Position numbers and translations under genes: made by a program. Under the pieces are notes generated by a model that was not told where the DNA came from, made no database searches, and saw only the letters and a program-made list of their open reading frames with translations. This document shows, piece by piece, positions 23,384 to 32,187 of a DNA stretch of 33,012 bases. Numbering within the stretch: position 1 is the stretch's first letter; every line of letters begins with the position of its first letter. This stretch comes from Thermoplasmata archaeon. GTDB taxonomy: Archaea > Thermoplasmatota > Thermoplasmata > Lutacidiplasmatales > SKW197. The stretch covers positions 1 through 33,012 of the forward strand of contig JAVZCK010000023.1 in assembly GCA_038874435.1 (NCBI GenBank). Direction: 5' to 3'.

Positions 23384-24013
23384 CTATTTTCCCCTTACCT
23401 CTCCCCAGATTATTTTGTGGAGTTGCGGGAGAACTCGTACATTTAATTCCTCCTTTACAACAGCATCTGCAATGAATTTAATATCTGTTCCATAAACGGG
23501 CTGGAAGACCACATTTGTCTTTGGCGAATATTTTTCGATTATTTGCTTTGCGTAGTTGAAATCAGTTTCATCTGCAATTACGAATTTGAGTTCGTCAAAA
23601 GGGGAAAGAAGTTCAATGTTTGAAAAGTCCATCTTATCTTGCATCCCAGAGCTGGGACATTTAATATCCATGGAAATGCAGAGGTTTTCCTCGCAGGGCA
23701 TCTCTTGAATTGTTTTAGAGCCATTTGTCTGAAGCTGCACGAAGTAGCCAGCATCAATAAACCTTGAAATCAGTTTCGTAATTTCTTTATAAAGGAGTGG
23801 TTCCCCACCAGTGATGCATACTCTGTTTACTCTGAATTCTTCAACCTTCTTGAAAATTGCATCAATGCCCATTTCAGTGCCTTCTTCGAAAGCATATTTA
23901 GTATCACACCATTTGCATCTCAAGTTGCAACCAGTTACCCTAACAAAAACCATTGGAATTCCAATGTTGATACCTTCGCCCTGAATTGAGTAAAAAATTT
24001 CGTTTATCCGCAT
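23384..24013 (-). CDS. queE: 7-carboxy-7-deazaguanine synthase QueE (radical SAM)
   Basis: QueE converts 6-carboxy-tetrahydropterin to 7-carboxy-7-deazaguanine on the way to preQ0, the precursor of archaeosine in archaeal tRNA. The 209-residue protein opens with the family-typical INEIFYSIQGEG and carries the radical SAM 4Fe-4S motif CNLRCKWC (Cys29, Cys33, Cys36), followed by CITGGEPLL for SAM binding. The ATG at 24011-24013 has a strong RBS (GAGGGGG, 24023-24029) located inside the upstream queD, and the two genes overlap by 10 bp. Confidence 0.95.
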   Translation of the reverse strand: MRINEIFYSIQGEGINIGIPMVFVRVTGCNLRCKWCDTKYAFEEGTEMGIDAIFKKVEEFRVNRVCITGGEPLLYKEITKLISRFIDAGYFVQLQTNGSKTIQEMPCEENLCISMDIKCPSSGMQDKMDFSNIELLSPFDELKFVIADETDFNYAKQIIEKYSPKTNVVFQPVYGTDIKFIADAVVKEELNVRVLPQLHKIIWGEVRGK

Positions 24014-24495
24014 GGATTTAGCCCCCTCTCAAACCAGGCAATCTGTCCAATTCCTTCAGCCACACCACACTGAATTCGCACTAAATTCTTATAATCTTTA
24101 AGACGTTCAGCGAGGAGATTGCAGATGTATTCTGCCAGTGACTCAGCTGTCACATGCTCTATTTCACACAGGACACAGTCAGAGGCAGGAAAAATGTAGT
24201 GTTTTTTGCCATGCCAGACCTCAATTTCCTCACCTTTTCTTTCTATTTTTAAATCAGAATTTTTTGATGGGAGAAGCACATGGTGGTCTAATTTAGCAAT
24301 TATTTCCCTTGCATACTCTTTTAACTTTGAAAAGTCCAGAAGCATGCCCTCGCTGCCTTGCTCTCCGTAAACTTTGATTTTTAGAAAGTAGTCATGTCCG
24401 TGCAATCTCGAACATTTTTCATGCCCAGGGATAAAATGACAGGCAGAGAACCGCAGGTCTCTGAAGACACCATCTAACTCCACGCAGATTTCCAT
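24004..24495 (-). CDS. queD: 6-carboxy-tetrahydropterin synthase QueD (PTPS family)
   Basis: QueD makes 6-carboxy-tetrahydropterin from dihydroneopterin triphosphate, the step before QueE. The 163-residue protein has the zinc ligands His20 and His32/His34, and the CxxxHGH motif (CSRLHGH, catalytic Cys28) that marks QueD-type rather than biopterin-type enzymes. It also has LDHHVLLPS and TAESLAEYI, matching the catalytic Asp-His and Glu regions of the family. It is the first gene of the queD-queE-epimerase unit. A TATA-like box at 24518-24526 lies about 27 nt from the ATG, suggesting a leaderless mRNA. Confidence 0.94.
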   Translation of the reverse strand: MEICVELDGVFRDLRFSACHFIPGHEKCSRLHGHDYFLKIKVYGEQGSEGMLLDFSKLKEYAREIIAKLDHHVLLPSKNSDLKIERKGEEIEVWHGKKHYIFPASDCVLCEIEHVTAESLAEYICNLLAERLKDYKNLVRIQCGVAEGIGQIAWFERGLNPCG

Positions 24496-31089: not shown

Positions 31090-32109
31090 ATGAAACTTGA
31101 GAAGGTGGGAGAAAGGGGAATAATTAGGAAACTTGGCGAGATTTTTGGTGAAAGTGCAATAGAGGATGACTGTGCTATTATACCAGTAGGTGGCCGTTAT
31201 TTCATGCTTTTTACCACAGACACAATAAATCAGAAGGAACACATACCCTTTACCGCTACTCCATGGCAGATTGGATACTATGCTTGTGCTGTGAATCTGA
31301 GTGATATTGCTGCAAAAGGAGGCGAGCCGAGGGGCTTGCTCTTTGCTACAACATATCCTAAAGATACAAACCTGGACTTTGTAATGGAAGTTGCAAGGGG
31401 AATGGCTGACTGTGCAGGAATGTACGGAACTACGGTCATCGGCGGAGATACAAAAGAAGGAGATTCCCTTACAATTGCAGGTGTTGGCATCGGAAGGGTA
31501 CATAGTTCAATGCTCATGCGGAGGAAGGGTGCAAAGCCAGGCGATGCAGTTTATATAACAGGAACGGTAGGCAGAGGAGGCACTGCATTCGTGAAGCTTC
31601 AGCATGGCTACGAGCAAAAAAATGCTACTAAAGAATTACTTGAAATCACACCCAGAATCACATTAGCGAGACAAATTGCGCGGTTTGGTTATGTTACAAG
31701 CACAATTGACACTTCCGACGGTTTAGCAGCTTCTCTTTGCCAGCTCGGCGAACTTAACAATGTTGGATTCCAGATTCTTTGGGATGAAAAGTTTCCAGTT
31801 TATCCTGATGCTCCAAGAATCGCCAATAAATTCGGTATGGAATTGAGCGACTTCATATTTTACGGTGGCGACTACGAGATTCTCTTCACAATTGCCAGCA
31901 GTTTTAAGGATGAATTTGAGAAGAAATGTAAAAGAAAGAAGTTCCCTGTAACAAGGATAGGAAGAGTTACGGAGGATAAATCAATTGTGCTCAAGCAACC
32001 CAATGGGCGGAATCTGGATTTGAGAGGGTATGGTTACGAACATTTTCTTAGAAAGAATAAAAATCTGGAAACTAAAATTCTGAGTGGACCCAGCGGGAAT
32101 TTCAGGTAG
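31090..32109 (+). CDS. thiL: thiamine-monophosphate kinase ThiL
   Basis: ThiL phosphorylates thiamine monophosphate to the active cofactor thiamine diphosphate using ATP. The 339-residue protein shows the family motifs DDCAII, FTTDTINQ, NLSDIAAKGGEPRG, GGDTKEGDSL, DTSDGLAASL and YGGDYEILF. Homologues usually end close to the GYEHF seen here. The last 20 or so residues after it form a basic tail, and the final eight codons plus the stop lie opposite the tRNA-Ala gene. The start ATG follows a GGTGG RBS, 15 bp after PAN, so the two genes probably share an mRNA although their functions are unrelated. Confidence 0.95.
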   Translation: MKLEKVGERGIIRKLGEIFGESAIEDDCAIIPVGGRYFMLFTTDTINQKEHIPFTATPWQIGYYACAVNLSDIAAKGGEPRGLLFATTYPKDTNLDFVMEVARGMADCAGMYGTTVIGGDTKEGDSLTIAGVGIGRVHSSMLMRRKGAKPGDAVYITGTVGRGGTAFVKLQHGYEQKNATKELLEITPRITLARQIARFGYVTSTIDTSDGLAASLCQLGELNNVGFQILWDEKFPVYPDAPRIANKFGMELSDFIFYGGDYEILFTIASSFKDEFEKKCKRKKFPVTRIGRVTEDKSIVLKQPNGRNLDLRGYGYEHFLRKNKNLETKILSGPSGNFR

Positions 32110-32187
32110 TTTGAGATTTCAAAATACCATTTGAACCCGCGACCTCTTGCTTGCGAAGCAAGCGATCTTCCGCTGATCTATGGGCCC
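32085..32187 (-). tRNA. tRNA-Ala (anticodon CGC) with a 31-nt intron in the T-loop
   Basis: After removal of bases 32099-32129, the minus strand folds into a 72-nt cloverleaf: acceptor GGGCCCA/TGGGTCC (one G-U pair), D stem GATC/GATC, anticodon stem CTTGC/GCAAG with loop TTCGCAA (anticodon CGC), T stem GCGGG/CCCGC, T-loop TTCAAAT and discriminator A. Without intron removal the T arm cannot close. The 3' exon and the intron overlap the 3' end of thiL on the opposite strand. The gene lies 17 bp downstream of the hypothetical gene on the same strand and may be transcribed with it. CCA is not encoded. Confidence 0.92.
32099..32129 (-). other. tRNA-Ala intron between positions 59 and 60, bulge-helix-bulge motif
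   Basis: The pre-tRNA forms a canonical bulge-helix-bulge. The exon stem GCGGG/CCCGC is followed by a 4-bp central helix TTCA/TGAA (32135-32132 with 32104-32101) and two 3-nt bulges, AAT and ATT, on opposite strands. The intron helix is GGTA/TACC, then an inner stem TTTGA/TCAAA with an AATC loop. Cutting after the second base of each bulge releases 31 nt and leaves T-loop TTCAAA plus T. Every base of the intron is accounted for by this fold. Confidence 0.9.

Follow-up and report, generated by a model that had tools for sequence, protein, structure and literature searches.

A gene for tRNA-Ala(CGC) lies on the minus strand at 32085..32187 of the window, by which we mean the whole 33,012-nt stretch of DNA analyzed here. 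The gene comprises 103 nt including A73, encodes no CCA, and corresponds to a mature tRNA of 72 nt. On the minus strand, from 32187 to 32085, the pre-tRNA reads GGGCCCATAGATCAGCGGAAGATCGCTTGCTTCGCAAGCAAGAGGTCGCGGGTTCAAA-[TGGTATTTTGAAATCTCAAACTACCTGAAAT]-TCCCGCTGGGTCCA, with the intron in brackets. The 5' exon (32130..32187, nucleotides 1-59) ends in TTCAAA and carries the alanine anticodon CGC at 32153..32155; the 3' exon (32085..32098) runs from T60 to A73. Between them, at position 59/60 in the T-loop, sits a 31-nt intron, TGGTATTTTGAAATCTCAAACTACCTGAAAT (32099..32129). This direct reading was supported by ARAGORN run on the spliced sequence, and it matches to the base the isoacceptor and intron proposed in the initial annotation. 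The acceptor stem, GGGCCCA/TGGGTCC, contains the G3.U70 pair, which is the identity pair of alanine tRNAs.

In the unspliced gene, the T-stem halves GCGGG (32136..32140) and CCCGC (32093..32097) are 38 nt apart, compared to the 7 nt expected, so that the T arm is indeed interrupted as had been noticed. Removal of 32129-32099 leaves the 7-nt T-loop TTCAAAT and yields an alanine tRNA of the usual form, 72 nt long. At the junctions lies an exact 3-4-3 bulge-helix-bulge (BHB), as the initial annotation had described it in every element. Its outer helix is the T-stem, and its 4-bp central helix pairs the exon strand TTCA (nucleotides 54-57, 32132..32135) with the intron strand TGAA (32101..32104). 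The 5' bulge AAT (32129..32131) and the 3' bulge ATT (32098..32100) would be cut, by the established BHB rule, after AA and after AT, respectively. The rest of the intron (32105..32128) folds as a hairpin made of GGTA/TACC, a T.C mismatch, TTTGA/TCAAA and a 4-nt loop. The BHB sets the intron site between TTCAAA and T; as T stands at both ends, the DNA alone has a one-base ambiguity, which leaves the product unchanged.

A convergent open reading frame (ORF) for an AIR synthase-like (ThiL-type) protein at 31090-32109 on the plus strand overlaps the tRNA gene and ends within the antisense of the intron. The corresponding ORF of the sister genome described below seems to end just ahead of the tRNA, which points to a small shift of frame. 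Elsewhere in the window, at 23384-24495 on the minus strand, adjoining genes of the PTPS family (QueD-like) and the radical SAM family (QueE-like) were observed, which probably serve deazaguanine (archaeosine) modification of tRNA.

Detection and conservation of the tRNA-Ala(CGC) gene

The initial annotation had warned that standard tRNA searches may overlook this gene, and two of them did. ARAGORN called no tRNA at 32187-32085 of the window, and the Rfam tRNA model gave no match there at its gathering score, reaching 28.7 bits against a cut-off of 29 and covering only 32187-32132. The spliced sequence was called by ARAGORN as tRNA-Ala(cgc); the unspliced sequence received no call. Models for BHB introns are included in tRNAscan-SE 2.0 (PMC8450103).

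We then considered the folding of the pre-tRNA. The BHB fold has an energy of -16.5 kcal/mol, compared to -16.8 kcal/mol for the minimum free energy fold, which lacks the central helix and has a 7x7 internal loop in its place. With a gap of 0.3 kcal/mol, folding energy cannot decide alone, but sequence comparison did support the central helix. Of 132 verified T-loop introns of at least 20 nt, 131 form the three central pairs (T54, T55 and C56), compared to 16.5 expected from shuffled introns, which excludes a chance origin of the helix.

The genome (2.155 Mb, 95% complete) was searched for a second intact tRNA-Ala(CGC) gene and none was found, its remaining alanine tRNA genes being TGC and GGC; because of the 5% missing, a further copy could sit in an assembly gap. 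GCG accounts for 113 of the 853 alanine codons (13%) in the main ORFs of the window. We could compare the gene with that of the only other genome of the genus, that of a sister species (contig JAOAJK010000004.1, isolate SKW197), which has an Ala(CGC) gene at the same place. All 72 exon positions were identical, and the four differences were confined to the intron: two in the loop, one in a bulge, and one A-to-G change turning a T-A pair into T.G, so that no pair was broken. The flanks were 85% and 71% alike. Identical exons, an intron that varies without losing pairs, and diverged flanks point to a working tRNA whose intron is tolerated and yet structured.

T-loop introns in the genome and in related archaea

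Other tRNA genes of the window's genome (G000) are interrupted as well. The Arg(CCG) gene on contig C31 has a 33-nt intron at 59/60, which is conserved in the sister genome. Lys(TTT), at about 280-440 of contig C17 on the plus strand, is interrupted twice, in the D-loop (about 20/21; junctions CTAG-GTT-GAATCC...GGATTC-CTAG-AAA) and at 59/60 (TTCG-AAA-CTCCATC...GATGGAG-CGAA-AGT), each time with a 4-bp central helix; with both introns removed, ARAGORN calls tRNA-Lys(ttt).

Introns of other kinds were also seen in this genome. Gln(TTG), Glu(CTC), Glu(TTC), Gln(CTG) and Pro(CGG) (contigs C5, C2, C26, C2 and C20) have anticodon-loop introns of about 190-460 nt made of short repeats such as GGGTACCGTAGGGTGTCAACCCTCGGGGGTTACCGTAAGGGG, a family that is also scattered elsewhere in the genome and amounts to 37 pieces altogether. 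The published length range of archaeal tRNA introns is 11-129 nt (PMC4090602). In the tRNA-Ser(GCT) gene (G000:C15:42850-43300, minus strand), the intron lies near 33/34, is about 45 nt long and has a motif other than the standard BHB. A long anticodon intron in tRNA-Trp(CCA) (G000:C1:99000-99400, plus strand) contains box C/D-like motifs, which are known in this intron from other archaea. A weak false tRNA match was traced to a CRISPR-like array (G000:C13:21400-21850) with the repeat GTTCCAGTCCCCTTTTCATCGGGTTTTGAC.

The assignment of the genome to the Thermoplasmata holds, and T-loop introns recur throughout its order. A DNA search revealed another family of the order in which Ala(GGC) is interrupted at 59/60 and Ala(CGC) is intact, which is the opposite of the state in the window's genome. 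A pattern scan of GTDB genomes for such Ala(GGC) introns returned at least 80 stretches, some of which are chance matches to intact genes; at least about 60 distinct introns of 27-36 nt remained, nearly all in records titled Thermoplasmata. The carriers include UBA184 and AcS and SubAcS isolates. A study whose text does not contain the word "intron" (PMC9287336) assigns AcS11-62, SubAcS15-31 and SubAcS9-61 to the Lutacidiplasmatales, and AcS11-62 and SubAcS15-31 match genomes placed in the window's order, which we therefore equate with the Lutacidiplasmatales. We also saw archaeal-type tRNA-Ala genes with T-loop introns on contigs labeled Campylobacteraceae and "bacterium"; given these genes, the records probably hold mis-binned archaeal contigs.

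For a search across isotypes, we used R1, a covariance model of T-stem plus intron that was trained on real introns with T-stems swapped between tRNAs; owing to this exchange, it is a search tool and not evidence. As 150 of about 210 candidates were scored, the Lys(TTT) gene of the genome studied here went undetected by R1, and its counts are therefore lower bounds. In the family with Ala(GGC) introns, it gave at least 6-16 matches per genome at E <= 1. At E <= 1e-4, matches were obtained in all 48 genomes of the order listed in a class-wide sample of 250. The initial annotation had regarded a T-loop intron in a Thermoplasmata-type genome as unusual, which is right with respect to published accounts but not within this order.

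The genes behind these matches were checked at the sequence level in two genomes, and at least 10 of about 46 tRNA genes have a 59/60 intron in each: Ser(GCT), Ser(GGA), Ser(CGA), His, Glu(CTC), Asn, Arg(TCT), Arg(TCG), Asp and Ala(GGC) in G013, and Ala(GGC), Glu(CTC), Ser(GCT), Ser(CGA), Ser(GGA), Arg(TCT), Asn, Asp, His and Gly(TCC) in G002. Gln(CTG) is interrupted at the same position in other genomes. In a third family, represented by G003, about ten genes contain T-loop introns of 13-14 nt with the full TTCA/TGAA center and almost no inner hairpin; several of these genes have a second intron, and Arg(CCG) has three. Altogether, 139 distinct cases with 19 anticodon labels were verified by ARAGORN, and the introns at 59/60 range from 13 to 36 nt. 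Genes that also bear D-loop or anticodon introns escaped the candidate parser and were read by eye. Among G003, G100 and G231, we noted D-loop, anticodon and T-loop introns together in Arg(CCG) and Lys(TTT), and D-loop plus T-loop introns in Arg(CCT).

Recent transposition within genomes was tested as a source of these introns and found no support, as intron similarity averaged 0.46 between different isoacceptors of one genome, compared to 0.55 for the same isoacceptor in different genomes and 0.49 for unrelated introns.

Covariation was analyzed in a set of 42 gap-free sequences, all with 32-nt introns. Here, 90.7% of the cells pair, and 9/9 inner-helix pairs change on both sides. Since isotypes are mixed, covariation of the T-stem is trivial and the inner helix is the informative part; its covariation score was 0.638, whereas shuffled sets gave 0.205 and sliding gave no more than 0.193, figures that are not probabilities because the sequences are related.

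At the fourth central pair, G57 has C as its partner in 17/17 cases; the partner of A57 (n = 122) is G in 98 cases, T in 13, A in 8 and C in 3. About 70% of the verified motifs have A57.G as the fourth pair, and the window gene has the standard A-T. The count of G facing A57 is far above chance, with many of the cases being orthologues. We read A57.G as a real A.G closing pair and a mild relaxation of the canonical motif.

Outside the order, 22 further weak or unparsed matches from other Thermoplasmata families were read by eye, and 22/22 proved to be tRNAs interrupted at 59/60, many of them also with D-loop or anticodon introns. Family f25 gave 1-6 R1 matches per genome in the class-wide sample. 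Lys(TTT) with D-loop and T-loop introns was found in G188 and G200; both encode methyl-coenzyme M reductase, which identifies them as methanogens, presumably Methanomassiliicoccales. Cultivable members may permit a test at the RNA level, as these methanogenic relatives carry the intron. Beyond the class, 16 genomes of a phylum-wide sample had one to three R1 matches. Scattered T-loop introns are thus widespread in the phylum, and their expansion is a feature of the window's order.

The splicing endonuclease and the proposed route of splicing

One splicing endonuclease (EndA) was detected in the window's genome, a 351-residue ORF with two PF01974 units whose catalytic Tyr, His and Lys motifs are intact and conserved through the order. 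Its best relatives in the PDB are two-unit enzymes, namely, 5x89, which we take to be the Methanopyrus enzyme, and that of A. fulgidus. Two units fused in one gene were found in 20/21 genomes of the order and in 17/19 other members of the class (one with one unit, one with none). The loop from FYG to LSL has seven residues, the same as in A. fulgidus. PDB entry 3p1y, presumably the A. fulgidus protein with a grafted Crenarchaea-specific loop, is 8 residues longer exactly at this stretch. The short form is present in all aligned relatives of the order and nearly all of the class; two or three sequences fell outside the automatic loop pattern, one of them being visibly short-looped. An inserted lysine-bearing loop in the catalytic unit (CSL or ASL; PMC12397907) was found neither in this EndA nor in the great majority (nearly all) of the aligned relatives, its absence following from the short FYG-LSL loop. 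By its sequence, the enzyme is thus of the ordinary alpha'2 type and lacks specificity-broadening loops, and is not the broad-specificity endonuclease for which the initial annotation had suggested a check.

Archaeal EndA recognizes the BHB and not the tRNA body and makes one cut per bulge, after which a ligase joins the exons. An enzyme from Ferroplasma, also a member of the Thermoplasmata, is reported to cut minimal BHB substrates (PMC8707768). The motif of the Ala(CGC) gene is canonical, and cleavage by an alpha'2 enzyme is therefore to be expected whatever its location. We infer that the pre-tRNA is transcribed, cleaved and ligated as follows. In the transcript, the T-stem, TTCA, the intron TGAA and the intron hairpin would form the BHB; alpha'2 EndA would cut one site in each 3-nt bulge, releasing the 31-nt intron; and a ligase, presumably RtcB, would join the exons and restore the 7-nt T-loop.

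Alternatively, the gene could be a decaying pseudogene with a chance insertion of 31 nt, GCG codons being read by tRNA-Ala(TGC). An intact tRNA-Ala(TGC) is present and could in principle do so, and the failure of ARAGORN and Rfam to call the gene would fit decay. However, all stems and G3.U70 are intact, no redundant copy was found in the 95%-complete genome, the exons are 100% identical in the sister while the flanks diverge, and the insert forms an exact BHB. Many isoacceptors across the order, moreover, have an insert at this site with covarying helices, making decay extremely improbable. We give just as little credence to retention of the insert in a mature tRNA with an enlarged, structured T-arm. 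The unspliced RNA does fold as a stable extended hairpin, but a T-loop without its 7-nt form could not dock with the D-loop, and the contact needed for the L shape would be abolished. The conserved parts are the BHB parts, and lengths of 13 to 36 nt at one site are as expected of a sequence that is removed.

The identity of the enzyme leaves somewhat more room for doubt. A strictly canonical enzyme might not cut the A57.G found in about 70% of the verified motifs, and splicing could then depend on a second or modified endonuclease of broad specificity instead of alpha'2 EndA. This is nevertheless improbable, given that 20/21 genomes of the order searched have a single PF01974 gene, which encodes two domains and lacks an inserted loop, and that all four central pairs of the Ala(CGC) motif are standard. 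Taken together, the locus very probably holds a working tRNA-Ala(CGC) gene, present in a single copy, whose T-loop intron at 59/60 is spliced through the BHB by the two-domain alpha'2 EndA.

A broader reading concerns the choice of site. Nearly every tRNA T-loop begins with TTCRA. This stretch supplies one strand of the central helix, which would favor the 59/60 site and make one intron design suitable for almost any tRNA. We lean towards the view that the T-loop is a shared landing site for introns in this order, with TTCRA as half of the central helix, at least ten isoacceptors occupied per genome, and a loop-less alpha'2 enzyme adapted to the A57.G motif. If so, this would break the accepted rule by which tRNA introns that are relaxed or relocated depend on a loop-bearing endonuclease.

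Comparison with known systems

The Ala(CGC) intron is a BHB intron that is ordinary in principle, at a known but rare position, and part of an order-wide concentration. Position 59/60 is among the listed non-canonical intron positions, and such introns are abundant in Crenarchaeota and Nanoarchaeota; in Euryarchaeota with alpha4 or alpha2 enzymes, fewer than 10% of the genes are described as interrupted, each by a single BHB intron at the canonical position (PMC4090602). The alpha4 and alpha2 enzymes are said to cut only canonical motifs (PMC4033280). No report of T-loop introns in Thermoplasmatota was found in the open-access literature searched. Apparently, the host lineage, the abundance and the pairing with a loop-less EndA are new, the position itself being known in Crenarchaeota. 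Many tRNA genes of this order, which is abundant in acidic soils, would be overlooked or misread in annotation without a model for T-loop introns.

The introns described here resemble those of Crenarchaeota and Nanoarchaeota (PMC4090602) in position, in BHB logic, in affecting several isoacceptors and in numbering up to three per gene. They differ in their Thermoplasmatota host, in their concentration at a single position in one order, and in being paired with a loop-less alpha'2 instead of an (alpha-beta)2 EndA. With the canonical archaeal introns at 37/38, the window gene shares the exact 3-4-3 BHB and the EndA type; the position differs, and the central helix is built from TTCR at the start of the T-loop, whereas theirs uses anticodon-loop bases. 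Outside these groups, the tri-intronic tRNA-Ile(UAU) of Cyanidioschyzon merolae (PMC9602550) likewise combines D-, anticodon and T-arm introns in one gene, and Asgard tRNAs (PMC11291895) likewise include a high share of interrupted genes. Both are other lineages, and neither is known to have introns concentrated at a single site, unlike the situation here.

A homodimeric EndA also occurs in Korarchaeum cryptofilum, which was described as unique among archaea in pairing an alpha2 enzyme with non-canonical introns; that EndA has a specific loop (PMC4033280), and the one described here has none. ARMAN-2, with its epsilon2 EndA (PMC12397907), is also a lineage of the euryarchaeal side with non-canonical introns, but its protein has three units and an ARMAN-specific loop, compared to two units and no loop here. 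Accepted accounts thus tie non-canonical introns to loop-bearing endonucleases, whereas this order combines a plain alpha'2 enzyme with at least ten T-loop introns per genome, as counted in two genomes, so that the rule by which introns and endonuclease type coevolve becomes directly testable.
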